From assembly GCF_003369835.1 (NCBI RefSeq), contig NZ_QPMJ01000001.1, forward strand, positions 1,545,589 through 1,609,588: a DNA stretch of 64,000 nt, written 5' to 3'. The position numbers and the translations under genes are program-made. The notes under the pieces are model-generated. The model saw only the letters and a program-made list of their open reading frames with translations, made no database searches and had not been told where the DNA came from. This stretch comes from Halorussus rarus (GTDB taxonomy: Archaea; Halobacteriota; Halobacteria; Halobacteriales; Haladaptataceae). Position 1 is the first letter of the stretch. Each line of letters opens with the position of its first letter. Below are positions 4,942 to 56,860 of this stretch, piece after piece.

Positions 4942-5121
4942 GGGGTCGTGGCCAAGCCAGGGATGGCGACTGACTCCAGAGGCCACGCGCCCGGGACGAA
5001 ACTCCAGCTGATATACCGAGCGACCGACTGATCATCGGCTCGCGACGACGACCCTCTGGAGTTCCGAGGCGCACACACCGGAGATATCAGTCGATCGGGG
5101 GTTCAAATCCCTCCGACCCCA
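4942..5121 (+). tRNA. tRNA-Trp (CCA) with 106-base intron
   Basis: Exons 4942-4979 and 5086-5121 fold into a normal tRNA: acceptor GGGGTCG paired with CGACCCC, D arm GCC/GGC, anticodon stem ACTGA with TCAGT, anticodon CCA at 4976-4978, T arm around TTCAAAT, discriminator A at 5121, no encoded CCA tail. The intron follows G37. A bulge-helix-bulge is visible: CTCC (4974-4977) pairs with GGAG (5080-5083), with three-base bulges AGA (4978-4980) and ATA (5084-5086) that place the cuts after 4979 and 5085. Splicing by the archaeal tRNA endonuclease is established for this gene in Haloferax. Confidence 0.97.
4980..5085 (+). ncRNA. tRNA-Trp intron, box C/D-type methylation guide
   Basis: In haloarchaea this intron is a known box C/D guide RNA for 2'-O-methylation of C34 and U39 of the same pre-tRNA. 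The sequence supports it. CCTCTGGAGT at 5053-5062 is antisense to the anticodon region, and with a D-like box CCGA at 5064-5067 the N+5 rule points exactly to C34. CGACTGAT at about 5025-5032 is antisense to 5086-5093 and positions U39. A C-like box is CTGATAT at 5008-5014. The C', D and D' boxes are more GC-rich than consensus, so their exact limits are inferred. Confidence 0.85.
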
Positions 5122-47933: not shown

Positions 47934-48923
47934 TCAGAGTTCGGCCAGCACCGCCTCGGTCACGTCGCTCGTCGTCGCGTCGCCGCCGAGGTCGGGGGTG
48001 TGGGGCCCCGACGCCAGCACGGACTCCACGGCCGCGCGGACGCGCTGGCCGGCGTCGTCGTAGCCCAGATACTCCAGCAGCATCGCCGCCGACAGGATGG
48101 CGGCGCTCGGGTTCGCGACGCCCTCGCCGGCGATGTCGGGTGCGGTGCCGTGGACCGGCTCGAACAGCGCGCGCTCCCCGCCGACGTTCGCGCTGGGTAG
48201 CAGGCCCAGCCCGCCGACCAGCCCGGCCGCCAGATCAGACAGCATGTCGCCCGCGAGGTTCGGACAGACGACGACGTCGTAGTCCTCGGGGCGCTGGACC
48301 AGATGCATCGCCAGCGCGTCCATCAGCGCGTCGTCGGTCGGCACGTCGTACTCCTCGCCGACCCGCCGCGCGGTCTCCAGGAAGAGCCCGTCGGTGGTCC
48401 GCATCACGTTGGCCTTGTGGGCTATCGTCACGCCTAACCCGCGGTCGGCGGCGTACTCGAAGCCGTAACGCGCGATTTCCGCCGAGGCGGACTCGGTAAC
48501 GACCCGTGTCAGCGTGGTTACGCCCGGCGCAATCTCGGACTCGTGGCCCGCGTAGACGCCCTCGGTGTTCTCCCGGACGAACACCAGGTCGGTCTCGGGG
48601 TTCGGGGCGTCGATGCCGGGGTAGGCACGGACCGGCCGGACGTTGGCGAACGAGTCGACCGCCCGCCGGAGCGGGATGATGACGTCGGCCGCGGTCTCGC
48701 CGGCCGCGCCGAACAGGGTCGCGTCGGCGCTCGCCGCGAGCTCGCGGGTCTCGTCGGGCAGCGCCTCGCCGGTCCGCTCCTTCACCTCGTCGCCGGCCTC
48801 GGCCTCGGTGAACTCGAAGTCGGGGCCGACCGCCTCCAGCACGTCGCGGGCCGCGGCGGTGACCTCCCGTCCGATGCCGTCCCCGGGGATTACGACGACG
48901 TGCTCGGAACCGTCCGCAGTCAT
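47934..48923 (-). CDS. leuB: 3-isopropylmalate dehydrogenase
   Basis: NAD-dependent dehydrogenase of leucine biosynthesis, 329 residues. The N-terminal [14 protein letters not shown], catalytic Arg/Lys/Asp region ([41 protein letters not shown]) and [18 protein letters not shown] site are all visible. It is the last gene of the ilv-leu operon; its ATG overlaps the leuD stop by ATGA. Confidence 0.95.
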
Positions 48924-49594
48924 TCGGCCTCCTCCACGTACGGCAGGCCGGCCGCCGTCGCGGCGACCGACTCGGCGTTCGACTTCAGCAGCGCGGTGGT
49001 GTCCCAGACGCCCTCGACCAGCGCCTTGCGCTGGGCGTCGTCGACCGTGGCGTCGATCTCGCGGTCATCGTAGCTGACCGACTCGGCCGCGACGTCGATA
49101 TCGATCTCGGTGTCGGGGTGCTCGTCGACGTAGTCCTGCAGGGCTTCGATCTCCTGCTGGCTCGCGGTGACCGTCGGAATGCCGAGCGCGAGGCAGTTGC
49201 CCGCGAAGATCTCGGCGAAGCTCTCGCCGACGATGGCGTCGATGCCCCAGCGCATCAGCGCCTGCGGGGCGTGCTCGCGCGAGGAGCCGCAGCCGAAGTT
49301 GGCGTTGACGACCAGTACCGAGGCGTCCCGGAACCGGTCCTCGTTGAAGGGGTGGTCCTTGACTTCGACGGTTCCACCGTCTCCGTCTCGTTGCTCCTCC
49401 GGAGCAACGCCGTCGTCGTCGGTGAACCGCTGGTCCTGGAAGACGAACTGGCCGAGGCCGTCGAAGGTGATCGCCTTCAGGTACCGCGCCGGGATGATCT
49501 GGTCGGTGTCGATGTCGTTGCCCCGGAGCGGGATGCCGGTCCCGGAGACGCGCTCGACCGTCTCGATGTCGGTCTCGGTGGTCTGTCCGCTCAT
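48920..49594 (-). CDS. leuD: 3-isopropylmalate dehydratase small subunit
   Basis: A 224-residue swivel subunit pairing with LeuC. Motifs are [19 protein letters not shown] near residue 25 and [12 protein letters not shown] near 99. The stretch at about 62-78 ([19 protein letters not shown]) is longer than expected between FTDDD and HPFNEDRF, and the DNA there contains a 9-bp inverted repeat (49389-49409). It overlaps both neighbours by four bases. Confidence 0.95.
49389..49409 (-). repeat. Palindromic insertion in leuD
   Basis: Perfect 9-bp inverted repeat CGTTGCTCC/GGAGCAACG around a TCC centre, inside the protein-coding sequence at a position where the protein is longer than expected. A second short palindrome, ACGGT/ACCGT, is at 49368-49380. 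Confidence 0.5.
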
Positions 49595-51030
49595 GCCCGC
49601 GTCACCTCCGAGTCGTCGACGTCGGTCTCGGGGAGCTCCCGGACGTCGGTCACCTCGCCCTCGACCGCGGCGGCGGCGACCATCCGGGGGTTCATCAGCA
49701 CGGTCCGGCCCTCCTTGCTGCCCTGTCGGCCGACGAAGTTCCGGTTCGACGACGACGCGGAGGCCTCGTCGCCCTCCAGCTGGTCGTCGTTCATGCCGAG
49801 GCACATCGAGCAGCCCGCGCCGCGCCAGTCGAACCCGGCCTCGGTGAACACCTCGTCGAGGCCCTCGGCCTCGGCGGCGGCCTTCACGCGCTGGCTGCCG
49901 GGCACGACCATCGCGCGGACGTCGTCGTGGACCTCCCGTCCCGCGACGACCCGGGCGGCCCGCCGGAGGTCCGGCAGGCGCGCGTTGGTGCAGGAGCCGA
50001 GGAAGGCGACGTCGATCTGGTAGCCCTCCATCGTGTCGCCTGGCTCGACCCGCATGTGCTCCTGGGCCCGCCGGGCGGTGTCCCGCTTGTCTTCGGGTAG
50101 CTCCTCGGGGTGGGGAATCGGCTCGGTGACGCCGACGCCCTGGCCCGGCGTCGTGCCCCAGGTCACCATCGGTTCGAGCGCGTCGCCGTCGATGACGACC
50201 TCGTCGTCGTACTCGGCGTCGTCGTCCGACGCGATGGACTCCCAGTAGGGTTTGAGTTCCTCGAAGCGCTCGGGGTCGTCGGCGAAGGCGTCGGTGTCGG
50301 CGAGCCACTCGTAGGTGGTCTCGTCGGGGTTGACGTACCCCGCCCGGGCGCCGCCCTCGATGGACATGTTGCAGATGCTCATCCGACCCTCCATGTCGAG
50401 GTTCTCGACGGCCTCGCCGGCGTACTCGTAGACGTAGCCGACGCCGCCGTCGGTCCCGAGCTTCCGGATGATCTGGAGGATGACGTCCTTGGCCTCCACG
50501 CCCTCGCCGAGCTCGCCGGTGACCCGAATCCGGCGGACGTCCTTCTTCTCCATCGCCACGGTGCCGGTCGCGAGCACGTCCCGGATCTGGGAGGTGCCGA
50601 TGCCGAACGCCAGCGCGCCGAACGCGCCGTGGGTCGAGGTGTGACTGTCGCCGCAGACCACCGTCATGCCGGGCTGGGTCAGCCCCTGCTCCGGGCCGAT
50701 GACGTGGACGATGCCCTGGTCGCCGGTGTCCGGACTGGAGAACTCGATGCCCGCCTCCCGGACGTTCTCCTCGAGTTCGGCCATCATCTCCTCGGCCGCG
50801 CCCTCGTAGGGACGCTCGCGGTCGGCGGTCGGGACGATGTGGTCGACGGTGGCGTGGGTGCGCTCGGGGTACGCGACCTCGAGGTCGCGCTCGCGGAGCA
50901 TGCCGAACGCCTGCGGACTGGTCACCTCGTGGATGAGGTGGAGGCCCACGAACAGCTGGTCCTGGCCGGTCGGGAGCCCGGCGACCTTGTGGCGGTCCCA
51001 CACCTTGTCGTACAGGGTGCGCTCGCTCAT
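49591..51030 (-). CDS. leuC: 3-isopropylmalate dehydratase large subunit
   Basis: A 479-residue aconitase-family enzyme. The [4Fe-4S] cluster cysteines are in FLGSCTNAR and [28 protein letters not shown] lies near residue 116. Forms the isomerase with LeuD. The ORF extends 12 codons upstream, but [16 protein letters not shown] is the family start at 51030. Its stop overlaps the leuD start. Confidence 0.95.
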
Positions 51031-51147
51031 CGGCACCACCTCCGGTTCGTCCGTACTTCGTTGCAACCCCCGGGCGTCGCTCCGCCGGAGACGTCACTGT
51101 TCGTCGCTGCGTCGGAGAAATCAGTTCGTACGTGCATCGCTACGGGC

Positions 51148-51480
51148 TCACTCTTCGGACTCTACGGTCCGGTACTCGCCGCCCCGCTCGAAGACGCGGT
51201 CCGCGCTCTCGCCGTCGTCGTGCGGCGGCGTGTGGCTCACGTCCTTCATCCGGTCGGCAGCCTCGTTCTCTTCGTCCACCTCTTCTTCAGCGGCCTCCGG
51301 TTCGACTGCCTCCCGGCGACCCCCGTCCGCGGCGACGACCGGCCCGCGCTCGAAGGGCCGGTTCACGGTGCCGCGGGCGGCGTGCGGGTGGGTGTGGCTC
51401 ACGTCGCGCATCGGCGTCGCGCCGCGCTCGGTGGTCGTCTCGTCTGGCTCGGTCGCCTCGTGTCGGTCTGTTCGGTTCAT
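51148..51480 (-). CDS. Small two-repeat protein inside the ilv-leu operon
   Basis: A 110-residue, acidic, probably disordered protein. It carries one motif twice: MRDVSHTHPHAARG...FERG (about residue 24-45) and MKDVSHTPPHDDGE...FERG (about 78-100). It lies 4 bases after ilvC and 117 bases before leuC, on the same strand, so is part of the operon. I recall such small genes at this position in other haloarchaea, without known function; here the motif is duplicated, unlike a single-copy version. Confidence 0.7.
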   Translation of the reverse strand: MNRTDRHEATEPDETTTERGATPMRDVSHTHPHAARGTVNRPFERGPVVAADGGRREAVEPEAAEEEVDEENEAADRMKDVSHTPPHDDGESADRVFERGGEYRTVESEE

Positions 51481-51484
51481 TGTC

Positions 51485-52552
51485 TCAGTCGTCCGCTCGC
51501 ACTCGCTCGGACTCGTCGTCCTCGGTCGATTCCTCTGCCTGTTCCTCGTCGGCCCACGCGAACAGGGCGCGGAGCCTGGCGCCCACGTCCTCGATGTCGT
51601 GGTTCACGTCGGCCTCCTTCTGCTGGCGGTACACCGGCCGGCCGGTCTGGTTCTCCGAGATCCACTCCCGGGCGAACTCGCCGTTCTGGACCTCCTCGAG
51701 CGCCTCCTCCATGTTCGCGCGCACGTCCTCGTCGATGATCTCGGGGCCGCGGGTGAGCCCGCCGTACTCGGCGGTGTCCGAGACCGAGTCCCACATCTCG
51801 CGCATCCCGCCCTCGTACATCAGGTCGACGATGAGCTTCATCTCGTTCAGGCACTCGAAGTAGGCCATCTCGGGGCTGTACCCCGCGTCGACCAGGGTCT
51901 CGTAGCCCACCTTGATGAGCTCGGTGATGCCCCCGCAGAGCACCGCCTGCTCGCCGAACAGGTCGGTCTCGGTCTCCTCGCGGAACGTGGTCTCGACCAC
52001 GCCCGCGCGCGTGCAGCCGATCGCCTTCCCGTAGGCCAGCGCCTCCTGCTTGGCGTCGCCCGTGGCGTCGCGGTACACCGCGAGCAGGCCGGGCGTCCCC
52101 TCGCCGCTCTCGTAGTTGCGCCGGACGAGATGGCCCGGCGACTTCGGGGCGATCATCGTCACGTCCACGTCCTCCGGGGGTTCGATCTGGCCGTAGTGGA
52201 TGTTGAACCCGTGGGCGAACTGGAGGGTGTCGCCGGCCTCGAGTTCGTCCTCGACGTCGTCGTACACCGCGGGCTGGACCGTGTCGGGCACGAGCACCGA
52301 CACGATGTCGGCCCGGCTCGCGGCCTCCCTGGGCGTCGCCACGTCCAGGCCGTCCTCGCGGGCGGCGTCCCGGGAGGACGACTCTTCGCGCAGGCCGACG
52401 ACCACGTCGACCCCGCTGTCGGCGAGGTTCTGGGCGTGGGCGTGGCCCTGGCTCCCGTAGCCGAGCACGGCTACGGTCTTGTCGTCGAGGTACGCGTCGT
52501 CCGCGTCGTCGTCGTAGTACACTGTCGTGTCGAATTCGTCGTTCTCTGTCAT
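51485..52552 (-). CDS. ilvC: Ketol-acid reductoisomerase
   Basis: A 355-residue NADPH enzyme converting acetolactate to dihydroxy-isovalerate. The nucleotide-binding motif [16 protein letters not shown] is near residue 28, with [19 protein letters not shown] and catalytic [20 protein letters not shown] further on. The last 20 residues are an extra acidic tail common in halophiles. The gene is in the operon after ilvN. Confidence 0.96.
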
Positions 52553-52588: not shown

Positions 52589-53302
52589 TCAGTCGTCGTA
52601 CGTTCCGGTCTCGACCCGCTCGGGCTCCTCGTCGTCAGATTCCCCGCTCTCCTTGGCGTGGCCCGGCTCCTCGCCGGGCGTGGTCGGGGTGTCGCCCCGC
52701 GCCAGCGCGGTCTGGCCGGTCCGGGCGATCTCGATGATGCCGAACTGCCGGAACGCGTCGATGGCGTCGTCGATCTTGTGCTGCTCGCCGGTGATCTGGA
52801 CCGTGATGGTCCGGGGCCCGGCGTCGAGCGTCTGGCCCTCGTACATCTGGGTGATGGCGTGGACCTTGTCCGGCTCGTCGCCCCGCACCTTCAGCACGAC
52901 GAGCTCGGCCTGAACCGCGTGGTCGTCGAGCTCGCCCACCTGGATGACCGGCCGGAGCTTCGCGACCTGCTTCTTCACCTGGTCGATGCCGGCGTCGGTC
53001 TCCTCGACGACCAGCGTGATGCGGGCGTGGCCGTCGACCGTCGTCGGCCCGACCGTCAGGCTCTCGATGTTGAACTGCCGCCGGGAGAACAGCCCGGACA
53101 CCTTCGCCAGCACGCCTGGCTCGTGTTCGACCAGCGCGGAGACGACCGCGGTCCGGGTCTCCTGCTCGGCCTCGACCGCAGGGTCGATGCGGACGCCGTG
53201 CTTGTTCCGCCGGCCCTGTGGATCGGGGCGCTCCTCCGGCCGCGGGCCGGCGAGTTCGCCGCCCCTGTTCCCGACGTCGCCGCTCTCGTCCTCCGAGCTC
53301 AT
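52589..53302 (-). CDS. ilvN: Acetolactate synthase small subunit
   Basis: A 237-residue regulatory subunit. An ACT domain starts near residue 50 (VSALVEHEPGVLAKVSG, FNIESLTVGPT), binding branched-chain feedback inhibitors. A second part (about 130-205) helps activate IlvB. N- and C-terminal extensions are acidic and disordered. The start overlaps the ilvB stop (ATGA). Confidence 0.93.
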   Translation of the reverse strand: MSSEDESGDVGNRGGELAGPRPEERPDPQGRRNKHGVRIDPAVEAEQETRTAVVSALVEHEPGVLAKVSGLFSRRQFNIESLTVGPTTVDGHARITLVVEETDAGIDQVKKQVAKLRPVIQVGELDDHAVQAELVVLKVRGDEPDKVHAITQMYEGQTLDAGPRTITVQITGEQHKIDDAIDAFRQFGIIEIARTGQTALARGDTPTTPGEEPGHAKESGESDDEEPERVETGTYDD

Positions 53303-55125
53303 AGCTGGTCCTCCGATAGCGCGAACTTCCCGTTGTCGCCGCCGCTGGGCACCATCGGGTAGACGTTCGCCGCGGGGTCGATGCGGAAGTCGATGACCGA
53401 CGGGCCGTCGTAGGCCAGCGCGGCCGCGACGGTGTCGGCGACCTCGTCGTAGTCCTCGACGGTGTAGCCCTGGGCGCCGAACGCCTCGGCCAGCGGCTCG
53501 AACTCGGGGCACCACGAGTACTCGGAGGCCGAGTGGCGGCCGTCGTAGAAGGCGTCCTGCCACTGGCGGACCATCCCGATGTACTCGTTGTTGAGCACCG
53601 CGACCGTGATGTCCAGGTCCTCGCGGACCGCGACCGACAGCTCCTGGATGGTCATCAGGAACGAGCCGTCGCCCTCGAAGCAGACGACCTGCTGGTCGTC
53701 CTCGGCGGCGAACCGGGCGCCGATGGCCGCGGGCAGGCCGTAGCCCATCGTGCCGAGGCCGTGGGAGGAGACCCACGTCCGGGGCCGGGTGTAGGTCCAG
53801 TACTGGACCGCCCACATCTGGTGCTGGCCGACCCCGGTCGTGACGATGGTGTCGTCGCCGGTGGCCTCGTCGAGCGCCTCGACGACGAACTGGGGCTTGA
53901 GCGGCTCGTCGTCGGGCGTGGCGTAGTCCATCGGGTACTCGGCCTTCCACTCGCGGCACTGCTCGCGCCACTCCCGGTAGCCGTCGGCGATGGCGTCGGC
54001 GTCCATCCCGGTCTCGCTACCCAGTTCGTCGTCGAGCTGCTCGAGGACCGTGCCGGCGTCGCCGATCAGCGGGACGTCCGCGTGGACGTTCTTCGAGATC
54101 TCCGCCGGGTCGATGTCGACGTGCAGGACCTCGGCGTCGGGCGCGAACGTCTCGACGCCGCCGGTGAGCCGGTCGTCGAACCGGGTGCCGACCGCGAGCA
54201 TCACGTCGCAGTGGGTGGTCGCCATGTTGGCGTAGCCGGTGCCGTGCATGCCTACCATCTCCATCGCCAGGTCGTCGTCCTCGGGGAACGTCCCGACCGC
54301 GGGCATCGAGGTGGCGACCGGAATCTCGTACCGGCGGGCGAACGCCCGGAGCTCCTCGCTGGCCTCGCCCTTGAGCACGCCGCCGCCCGCCAGGATGACG
54401 GGCTTGTCTGCGCGTTCGAGCGTGCGCGCGGCCGCACGGACGGACTCGGCGTCGGCGTCGGTCCGCGGCCGGTGGGTGTCGGGCGTCGTCGCCTCGCCGG
54501 GCTCGCGGGTCGTCTCGGCCTGCGTCACGTCCTTCGGCAGGTCGACGAGCGTCGGTCCGGGCCGGCCGGACGCCGAGTAGGCGAACGCCTCGCCCACCAC
54601 GTCGCCGACGGTGTCGGCCCGGTCGGCGAAGTAGTTGGTCTTGGTGATGGGCGCGGTGATGCCGGTGGTGTCGGTCTCCTGGAACGCGTCGTTGCCCACG
54701 AACTCGGTCGGCACCTGGCCGGTGAGCGCGACGACGGGGTCCGAGTCCATGCTCGCGTCGGCGATGCCGGTCACGAGGTTGGTCGCGCCCGGCCCGGACG
54801 TGGCGAGACAGACGCCCGGCGTGCCCGAGACGACGCCGAAGGCGTCGGCGGCGTGTGCCGCGCCCTGCTCGTGGGCCATCATGACGTGGCGGAGCGGCGA
54901 GTCGAACACCGCGTCGTACACCGGCATGATGGCGCCGCCCTGGATGCCGAACAGGGTCTCGGCGCCCGCGTTCTCGAGGGCGGTCACGACCGACTGGGCG
55001 CCGGTCTGGACCCGTTTCTCCTCGGTCTCGGGCTCGGTGCGTGCGTCGTCGGCCGTCGCCTCGGTCGAGGACTCCTCGGCGTCGGCCTCGTCGGGGTCGG
55101 CGCGCCGCGGTGCGGACTCACTCAC
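53299..55125 (-). CDS. ilvB: Acetolactate synthase large subunit
   Basis: A 608-residue ThDP/FAD enzyme, first step of isoleucine, valine and leucine synthesis. The catalytic Glu is in MMAHEQGAAHAADAF (about residue 83), FAD site in the middle, and ThDP motif GDGSFLMTIQEL near 515 with the Asn-Asn end. It starts at GTG 55125. The first 45 residues are an acidic extension. It is preceded by a leader ORF and hairpin (see 55268-55399) that probably controls the operon. Confidence 0.96.
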   Translation of the reverse strand: MSESAPRRADPDEADAEESSTEATADDARTEPETEEKRVQTGAQSVVTALENAGAETLFGIQGGAIMPVYDAVFDSPLRHVMMAHEQGAAHAADAFGVVSGTPGVCLATSGPGATNLVTGIADASMDSDPVVALTGQVPTEFVGNDAFQETDTTGITAPITKTNYFADRADTVGDVVGEAFAYSASGRPGPTLVDLPKDVTQAETTREPGEATTPDTHRPRTDADAESVRAAARTLERADKPVILAGGGVLKGEASEELRAFARRYEIPVATSMPAVGTFPEDDDLAMEMVGMHGTGYANMATTHCDVMLAVGTRFDDRLTGGVETFAPDAEVLHVDIDPAEISKNVHADVPLIGDAGTVLEQLDDELGSETGMDADAIADGYREWREQCREWKAEYPMDYATPDDEPLKPQFVVEALDEATGDDTIVTTGVGQHQMWAVQYWTYTRPRTWVSSHGLGTMGYGLPAAIGARFAAEDDQQVVCFEGDGSFLMTIQELSVAVREDLDITVAVLNNEYIGMVRQWQDAFYDGRHSASEYSWCPEFEPLAEAFGAQGYTVEDYDEVADTVAAALAYDGPSVIDFRIDPAANVYPMVPSGGDNGKFALSEDQL

Positions 55126-55267
55126 GGCGGACCACTCCCGAACCGGTCGGTCGTCGATACTCTGCTGGCTGTGCGTCCTGGGGTGTCGTTGTTGTGCGTG
55201 TCACTGTCGGTCGAGCGCGCTTGTCGGTCTGGAGACGATGCGGAACGTCGGGTCGGAGAAGTGGTAG

Positions 55268-55289
55268 TGTAGGGGCTCAAGCCCCTACA
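55268..55289 (-). promoter_or_regulatory. 10-bp hairpin at the leader ORF stop codon
   Basis: On the minus strand TGTAGGGGCT-TG-AGCCCCTACA is a perfect 10-bp inverted repeat. The loop contains the stop codon of the 40-codon leader ORF. No strong T-run follows, so it may act through translation or RNA structure rather than simple termination. Confidence 0.75.
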
Positions 55290-55399
55290 ATAATCACGCG
55301 CTCGACAGTCGCACTGCTCGCGGCGGCCGGGCTGGTCGCGCCCGGGCGGTCGCGGGGCGCGAGGCGTCTCGCGCCGGTGGCAGTGGTCGACTGTCGCAT
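55277..55399 (-). CDS. ilvB leader peptide, 40 codons
   Basis: ATG at 55399 opens a 40-codon frame on the minus strand, ending at 55277. It begins MRQSTTATGARRLAPRD and ends TVERVIIVGA, with Val-Ile-Ile-Val codons directly in front of the hairpin whose loop holds the stop. The ATG lies 29 bases behind TTATGA, a leaderless start. Arrangement resembles bacterial ilvB/leu attenuator peptides, whose regulated amino acids appear as control codons. Regulation is inferred; no archaeal precedent is known to me. Confidence 0.7.
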   Translation of the reverse strand: MRQSTTATGARRLAPRDRPGATSPAAASSATVERVIIVGA

Positions 55400-55428
55400 C
55401 GTTACTGGATACGTACCGGGCCCGACGT

Positions 55429-55434
55429 TCATAA
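55429..55434 (-). promoter_or_regulatory. TATA-like box of the ilvB leader
   Basis: TTATGA on the minus strand, 29 bases before ATG 55399. It would start transcription close to that ATG, giving a leaderless leader-peptide mRNA followed by ilvB. Confidence 0.5.
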
Positions 55435-55606
55435 TCCTTTCCCGCGTGGCAACCCTTGCGCGAGAATCGACGGGGTCCCGTCCCGCCGGAGACGCCGCGG
55501 CCCGCGTCGCTTCCGCGGTGGCAACCCCCGCTTCGGGCGAGTCGGCTACCGTTCCGCCCGGCCGCCGCGCGCGGCTGGCCGGACGGGGCGACTCCGGCGG
55601 TCGCCA

Positions 55607-56818
55607 TCAGGCGCGGACCTCCGATTCCTCGCGGGTCACGTCGGCCTCGCGGGCGAACCGCTCCAGGTCGGCGACCGTGACGCGGTTCTTCTCCGCGCCG
55701 TAGTCCTTGACCCGGCGGGTCACCTCCCGGACCTCGGCGTCGGTCGGGGCGAACCCGTTGTCCTCCAGGCGCTTGCGGACCGAGTTCGCGCCGGTGTGCT
55801 TGCCCAGCACGAACTCCCGCTCGGCGCCGACCATCTCGGGAGTCATCACGCCCGGCTCGAACGTGTCGGAGTTCTCGATGACGCCCGCGGCGTGGATGCC
55901 GGACTCGTGGGCGAACGCGTTATCGCCGGTGACCGGCTTGTTCGCCGGTATCGGGACGTCGCTGTACTCCTCGACGATTGCCGAGAGCTCGGCGATGCCG
56001 GTCGTGTCGATCCCGGTGTCGACGCCGTAGACGCTCTCGACGGCCATCACGACCTCCTCGTAGGCCGCGTTGCCCGCGCGCTCGCCGATGCCGTTGACCG
56101 AGACCTGGGCCTGGTCGGCCCCGGCCTCGAAGCCGGCGACGGCGTTGGCGGAGGCCATGCCGAAGTCGTCGTGGGTGTGGACGTCGATGCGGGCGTCGGT
56201 GTGCTCGTCGACCAGTCGGACCAGGTCGGCGAACCGTCCCGGCGTCGCGACGCCGCAGGTGTCGGGGATGTTTATCCAGTCGACGTCGGCCTCGGAGACG
56301 GCCTCGACGACCGTCTCGAGGTACTGCTCGTCGGTCCGGGTGGCGTCCATCGGCGAGAACATCGCGGTGACGCCCGCCTCCTTCACCCGTTCGACCGCCT
56401 GCACCGACCGCTCGACGACCTCCTCGCGGGTCGCGTGCATCGAATCCTCGATCTGGACGTCGCTGGTCGAGGCGAAGACGTGGACCATCTCGACGCCGGA
56501 GTCGATGGCGGCCTCCACGTCCTTGTCGACCACGCGGGCCAGCCCGCAGGTGGTCGTCGTCGTGCTGGCGGCGATGTCGCTGACGGCCTCGAACTCGGCG
56601 TCGGAGTTGACGGGGAACCCGGCCTCGATGACGTGGGTGCCCATCCGGTCGAGGGCGTCGGCGATAGTTCGCTTCTCGTCGTAGGAGAAGGAGGTACGGG
56701 GAGCCTGTTCGCCGTCGCGCAGGGTCGTGTCGAACACCCGCGCGGACTCGAACTCGGTCTCAGTAGCTAGCGTGCCGTCGAAGAACTCGACCCGCCCGGC
56801 TGGTACCGGACGAACCAA
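55607..56818 (-). CDS. leuA: 2-isopropylmalate or citramalate synthase
   Basis: A 403-residue condensing enzyme of the LeuA/CimA/homocitrate-synthase family. The catalytic start is RVFDTTLRDGEQAPRTSFS, with MGTHVIEAGFPVNSDAEF and metal ligands in HTHDDFGMA. It lacks the C-terminal regulatory dimer domain. The first start codon in frame is TTG 56818; a properly placed ATG at 56834 behind a TTAAATA box is out of frame, consistent with a one-base insertion near the G-run at about 56790. Product choice between isopropylmalate and citramalate is not decidable here. Confidence 0.9.
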   Translation of the reverse strand: MVRPVPAGRVEFFDGTLATETEFESARVFDTTLRDGEQAPRTSFSYDEKRTIADALDRMGTHVIEAGFPVNSDAEFEAVSDIAASTTTTTCGLARVVDKDVEAAIDSGVEMVHVFASTSDVQIEDSMHATREEVVERSVQAVERVKEAGVTAMFSPMDATRTDEQYLETVVEAVSEADVDWINIPDTCGVATPGRFADLVRLVDEHTDARIDVHTHDDFGMASANAVAGFEAGADQAQVSVNGIGERAGNAAYEEVVMAVESVYGVDTGIDTTGIAELSAIVEEYSDVPIPANKPVTGDNAFAHESGIHAAGVIENSDTFEPGVMTPEMVGAEREFVLGKHTGANSVRKRLEDNGFAPTDAEVREVTRRVKDYGAEKNRVTVADLERFAREADVTREESEVRA

Positions 56819-56860
56819 TGTCGTTGTCGGACATCGTATCCCGTTCTGGCCACCTTCTCC

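Follow-up and report, generated by a model that had tools for sequence, protein, structure and literature searches.

What lies between leuA and ilvB in the Halorussus chromosome, and what might it do for the genes behind it? The window (the whole stretch of DNA that we have analysed, 64,000 nucleotides long) carries at this place a short open reading frame that the first-pass annotation had described as a TATA-like box followed by an ATG and a 40-codon frame ending Val-Ile-Ile-Val-Gly-Ala-stop, and every one of these elements is found on the minus strand: the TATA-like promoter element GATTATGA (55429-55436) is located about 30 nt 5' of the leader ATG (55399-55397), and the leader ORF of 40 codons plus TGA (55277-55399), whose frame is kept in relatives, encodes MRQSTTATGARRLAPRDRPGATSPAAASSATVERVIIVGA. 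The control codons ATT ATT GTA (Ile-Ile-Val, 55286-55294) occupy positions 55294-55292, 55291-55289 and 55288-55286, and are followed by GGG, GCT and the stop codon TGA (55279-55277), giving the peptide its Val-Ile-Ile-Val-Gly-Ala C-terminus. The leader ATG is probably also the expected RNA start, in which case the transcript would be leaderless.

Around the end of this frame, the hairpin that had been described as a perfect 10-bp structure, which we call P1, is present at a length of 9 Watson-Crick base pairs with a 4-nt loop. Its left arm TGTAGGGGC (55281-55289) overlaps the Val, Gly and Ala codons, in line with the overlap with control codons that had been claimed; its loop TTGA (55277-55280) does contain the stop codon; its right arm GCCCCTACA (55268-55276) has compensatory variants in relatives. 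The CCCC core of the right arm is followed by a G-free tract of C, U and A (55255-55271), which is richer in U near its end. An outer helix, P2, pairs GTCGAGCGCGT (55296-55306), situated in the leader codons 5' of Ile-Ile-Val and limited to certain lineages, with GCGCGCTCGAC (55210-55220). The next gene is acetolactate synthase, as the first-pass annotation had it, at a distance that we correct from 150 to about 143 nt, counted from the last base of the P1 stem to the GTG start at 55125. As a whole, the observation is real: a leader, its codons and a hairpin stand before ilvB.

The conservation of this arrangement has been followed across the haloarchaea, and it is by comparison that we have established the ORF with its choice of codons, the P1 hairpin, the G-free tract and the link to ilvB. 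A search for ilvB relatives yielded 80 haloarchaeal loci, and in 80/80 the motif AT[TC]GTAGGGG occurs in a short frame whose Ile-Val-Gly-Ala/Val end is separated from the stop by 0-6 further codons. The pattern ATYGTAGGGG-N3..14-CCCC, applied whatever gene follows, is matched in 375 of 391 haloarchaeal genomes; the reversed pattern, used as a control on the same 391 genomes, mostly gives zero. The 16 misses comprise 10 compensated variants, one genome without a true ilvB, one locus cut by the contig end and four genomes without a leader, which belong to the divergent families f6 and f11 and have ilvB directly after leuA. In the P1 variants GTAGGGCC/GGCCCTAC, GTACGGGCC/GGCCCG and GGGCC/GGCCC both arms have changed together and the hairpin is kept; in other variant leaders the Ile before GTA is replaced by Val, Leu or Arg; GTA itself is unchanged in every variant leader among the 10. 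The features that the first-pass annotation had proposed to compare across ilvB upstream regions are thus all retained: the frame is open in relatives, P1 is maintained with compensatory changes in the variant lineages, and the Ile and Val codons are conserved in the numbers given below for the comparative set of 174 distinct leaders, which form 77 similarity clusters.

Searches beyond this set of leaders have returned little. The P1 palindrome occurs nowhere else in the 4.37-Mb genome, and this single copy argues against a repeat or mobile hairpin. Elsewhere in the phylum the strict pattern retrieves unrelated hairpins only, and no clear leader has been found before leuA in deep lineages. Because uORFs have been published before pheS and the Trp-tRNA ligase gene of H. 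volcanii (PMC4983044), a leader was also searched for before pheS; none was found there or before trpE in the Halorussus genome. Rfam covariance models (T-box, riboswitch and others) gave no gathering-level match in the leader region of the window and of 20 relatives.

The genes that follow the leader are those whose products it appears to count. The cluster runs leuA-ilvB-ilvN-ilvC-small protein-leuC-leuD, all on the minus strand, with the leader between leuA (55607-56834, located 5' of the leader) and ilvB (53299-55125, directly 3' of it). The ilvB product, the acetolactate synthase large subunit, matches TIGR00118 over its cut-off (E=2.4e-210) and contains the Pfam TPP enzyme domains; the ilvN product, the small subunit (52589-53302, start approximate), the ilvC product, ketol-acid reductoisomerase (51485-52552), and leuC and leuD (49591-51066 and about 48920-49600, together 48920-51066) exceed the cut-offs of TIGR00119, TIGR00465, TIGR00170 and TIGR00171, respectively. 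The small protein with DVxHTPPH...FERG repeats (51148-51480), encoded within the ilv operon and found after ilvC in many relatives, has no Pfam or NCBIfam match. The control residues, Ile and Val, are products of this downstream operon, and the leader stands directly before ilvB in 172/174 distinct leaders. In the remaining two (L082 and L083, genus g2) the gene behind it encodes the small DVxHTPPH...ANRVFERG protein, which in these genomes is unlinked to the ilv operon and is preceded by a separate Ile-Val leader. The two genomes concerned, G123 and G326, have two leader copies each, L188 and L189 before ilvB and L082 and L083 before the small HTPPH protein. Judged by gene arrangement, such a leader copy of its own would tie this uncharacterised protein to branched-chain amino-acid control.

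Whether the frame is read by ribosomes can be asked of the ATG. ATGs picked by their TATA spacing alone are in frame with GTA in 153 of 156 cases, where one third would be expected, and in 61/62 after cluster weighting; the highest-scoring TATA-like hexamer reaches 4/6 or more in 149/174 leaders and lies at position -33 from the ATG in 115. This peak at -33 is compatible with a predicted RNA start at the ATG or a few bases 5' of it, and 72% of the protein-coding transcripts of Hfx. volcanii are leaderless (PMC4983044). By these measures the leader is translated. A product that works as a small protein, with the hairpin and the rare codons as by-products, would agree with the conserved start and with a length that is similar in most species, but the N-terminal two thirds of the peptide diverge, leader lengths vary widely overall, and it is the synonymous choices at the end of the frame that are frozen; we regard this possibility as barely credible. 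Ile, Leu and Val are enriched in the last seven codons only, where their share is 29-57% between positions -7 and -2 and reaches 98% at -1, versus 6-20% earlier in the frame.

Among these codons, the Val codon GTA is invariant (174/174 leaders). Across the ilvB genes of 80 species it makes up 0.3% of the Val codons; the figure is 1.4% in the window genes and 7/189 in the leader bodies. It is retained in the 98 leaders in which its G and T are unpaired, and base pairing therefore cannot explain why it is frozen. Ile precedes it in 167/174 leaders, in 129 of them as ATT, a codon that accounts for 4.3% of the Ile codons in ilvB. In published theory, attenuators become more sensitive when their control codons are rare (PMC1183508). 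It might alternatively be the nascent peptide that acts, its C-terminal Ile-Val-Gly-Ala/Val blocking the ribosome at the stop codon upon a free amino acid in the manner of TnaC, and these residues are indeed conserved in most leaders; the variants IRVRAAMAH, GIVRAR, SPIVGPA and GRVGAP, however, alter the peptide and keep GTA and the hairpin, and a peptide sensor has no need for GTA over GTC, which makes an arrest peptide highly unlikely in our judgement. That the leader peptide senses amino-acid supply through its codons we consider very probable.

The hairpin that these codons enter is the one RNA structure common to all leaders. The core pairs of P1 are kept in 99-100% (cluster-weighted), and its covariation is limited because the left arm hardly varies; the loop measures 3-9 nt across the 174 leaders, and in 165/174 the stop codon lies in or beside it, the right arm beginning 1-7 nt 3' of the first stop-codon base. 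The near-perfect inverted repeat of the window could suggest a DNA operator, or an RNA hairpin bound by a protein, next to an incidental ORF; such a site is hard to reconcile with the locked frame of the ATG, the stop codon in the loop, the enriched control codons, loop lengths that allow no fixed half-site spacing, and the half of the leaders that are not palindromic beyond 5-6 bp, and we hold it to be very improbable. Downstream of the P1 CCCC, the G-free run has a median of 17 nt, compared with a median of 0 and a 99th percentile of 8 for other CCCC in the same loci. Only about 6-7% of the clusters have a TTTT at most 22 nt from P1, i.e. there is no general U-tract, and a weaker U/C tract is present. 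No universal antiterminator or competing helix has been found.

The second helix does not compete with the first: P2 nests around P1, pairing the codons just 5' of the control codons with sequence that lies 40-65 nt further downstream, and it is strong in some lineages only. It is perfect over 10-12 bp in 13/13 distinct Halorussus-type leaders, and helices of different sequence occupy the same place in other genera. Its class-wide support is moderate (8.1 clusters versus 3.1 expected; 3.7 versus 0.6 at a stricter threshold); the windowed test and the helix test support it in some lineages only, and class-wide long-range pairing by duplex energy is not significant overall. As a separate observation, leaders of Natrialbaceae and Halorussus share a CGCAYCGTTTTC-like block, located about 26-40 nt 3' of P1 and 5' of the P2 right arm.

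From these elements we infer the RNA 5' end, the stalling of the ribosome, the direction of the response and its output in termination, as follows. The RNA would begin at the leader ATG or immediately beside it, and the ribosome would therefore load at the RNA 5' end; near the end of the leader it would read Ile-Val, the Val being the rare GTA at the foot of P1. In a shortage of charged tRNA-Ile or tRNA-Val(UAC), the ribosome would stall at the control codons and cover the left arm of P1, which would stay unfolded, and transcription would continue into ilvB. When supply is ample, the ribosome would pass quickly, stop in the P1 loop and depart, upon which P1 would fold, the G-free pyrimidine tract would be exposed and the polymerase would terminate early, by way of the hairpin and the weak U/C tract or through the factor FttA. 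The geometry agrees with such a scheme, since a ribosome whose A site holds GTA would cover the P1 left arm, and one at the stop codon all of P1, so that P1 could fold only after departure; this gives a simple two-state switch, whose direction and output would be those just described. Taken as a complete chain, a leader peptide that senses branched-chain amino acids and attenuates the ilvB operon at the level of transcription is the account that we favour, with moderate confidence.

The output is the step at which this account has its main competitor: the sensor may be the same, and the position of the ribosome may alter the translation of ilvB or the stability or processing of the mRNA instead. 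The missing U-tract terminator would fit such an output, as would the SD-like motif that precedes ilvB in about half of the checked leaders and the lineage-specific P2, which persists in the full-length RNA. Against it, no leader segment pairs in excess with the ilvB start region, and P1 and ilvB are separated by anything between 69 and 242 nt; absent pairing and loose spacing together argue against translational coupling, and make this output, in our estimate, rather unlikely. Sequestration of the ilvB start, tried as a candidate, has been rejected for lack of a pairing signal. Early termination is favoured on the same two grounds and because hairpin termination is known in H. volcanii, where in a reporter test an upstream hairpin ended 59% of the transcripts (PMC7237163). 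FttA, which prefers U-rich RNA (PMC11616081), is a possible helper of this termination. The label "transcription attenuator" is accordingly one that we infer.

Compared with the bacterial trpL, hisL, leuL and ilvL/ivbL attenuators, the haloarchaeal element has in common a leader ORF that carries rare codons for pathway products towards its 3' end, a hairpin that would fold or not according to where the ribosome stands, and an amino-acid operon downstream. It differs in being archaeal and probably leaderless, in having its stop codon placed within the loop of the only universal hairpin, in lacking both a universal antiterminator and a U-tract, and in relying on one invariant GTA codon and not on a long codon run. 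It is not filed as a member of the bacterial-type attenuator family, because alternative helices and a U-run were tested for and not found; the attenuator-like leader peptide of the first-pass annotation thus holds as a leader peptide, with its frame, Ile/Val codons and hairpin conserved, and gives way as regards classical ilv/leu attenuator anatomy, which has a universal alternative hairpin and a U-tract.

Other bacterial systems offer partial parallels. In E. coli pyrBI, the leader ribosome masks a hairpin and UTP is sensed through polymerase pausing; the likeness lies in a leader ribosome that prevents the folding of a hairpin, and the difference in the haloarchaeal codons, which point to the supply of Ile and Val. 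TnaC-type leaders lead to factor-dependent (Rho) termination after the stop codon, and resemble the present one in that a short leader is directly followed by an unstructured, G-poor tract; here, in contrast, there is no conserved arrest peptide and, as archaea are not known to have Rho, FttA would have to act.

The first-pass annotation knew of no described archaeal case, and we have found none for an ilvB leader in the open-access literature, a search that lay mostly outside subscription journals, where a report may have escaped us. A paper of 2014 found archaeal attenuators to lack direct support in vivo (PMC4247193), and according to one of 2021 neither attenuation nor antitermination of transcription was known from archaea (PMC8448881). 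By its sequence the element looks like a translation-based amino-acid supply switch, a type of control that has so far not been described from Archaea. Since it occurs in nearly all sampled haloarchaea, whether archaea use attenuation, and in what manner, becomes directly testable in Haloferax volcanii, where ilvB1 is HVO_1508 and its disruption leads to a requirement for Val, Leu and Ile (PMC4300041); the leader would also serve to probe how leaderless translation is coupled to archaeal transcription termination.

The neighbouring leuA presents an anomaly of its own. At its 5' end in the window (56834-56750, minus strand), the promoter-spaced ATG (56834), positioned by its TATA spacing, opens the frame MSDNDIGSSGTSRAGRVLRRHASY, which ends in a stop and lies one base out of the enzyme frame. 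The same holds for 84/84 distinct haloarchaeal leuA 5' ends (from the relatives L001-L120), and 75/84 have no in-frame ATG, GTG or TTG between this ATG and the catalytic motif; the block CGAGTTCTTC[CGA]A hardly varies in either frame. These findings point to a likely +1 slippage at CTT, a rare Leu codon. A start problem in leuA2 has been described by Pfeiffer and Dyall-Smith (2021), who proposed slippage or a CTG start, perhaps dependent on leucine (PMC8305020); it concerns the same organisms and gene cluster, but the leuA gene with its out-of-frame ATG, and the account given there of leuA2 does not mention the ilvB leader. Our alignment extends the anomaly to the whole class.

A broader proposal may be put forward tentatively, as somewhat less than an even prospect: that a class-wide archaeal attenuator has evolved independently, built from a leaderless 5'-end ribosome, one ultra-rare Val codon, a single hairpin around the stop codon, a G-free tract and early termination perhaps by FttA, and accompanied by a second sensor in the form of a +1 frameshift at the rare Leu codon of leuA. 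Elsewhere in the window, at 4942-5121 on the plus strand, where ARAGORN reported no tRNA, an Rfam tRNA match is spread across 180 nt, and the sequence is therefore probably an intron-containing tRNA.
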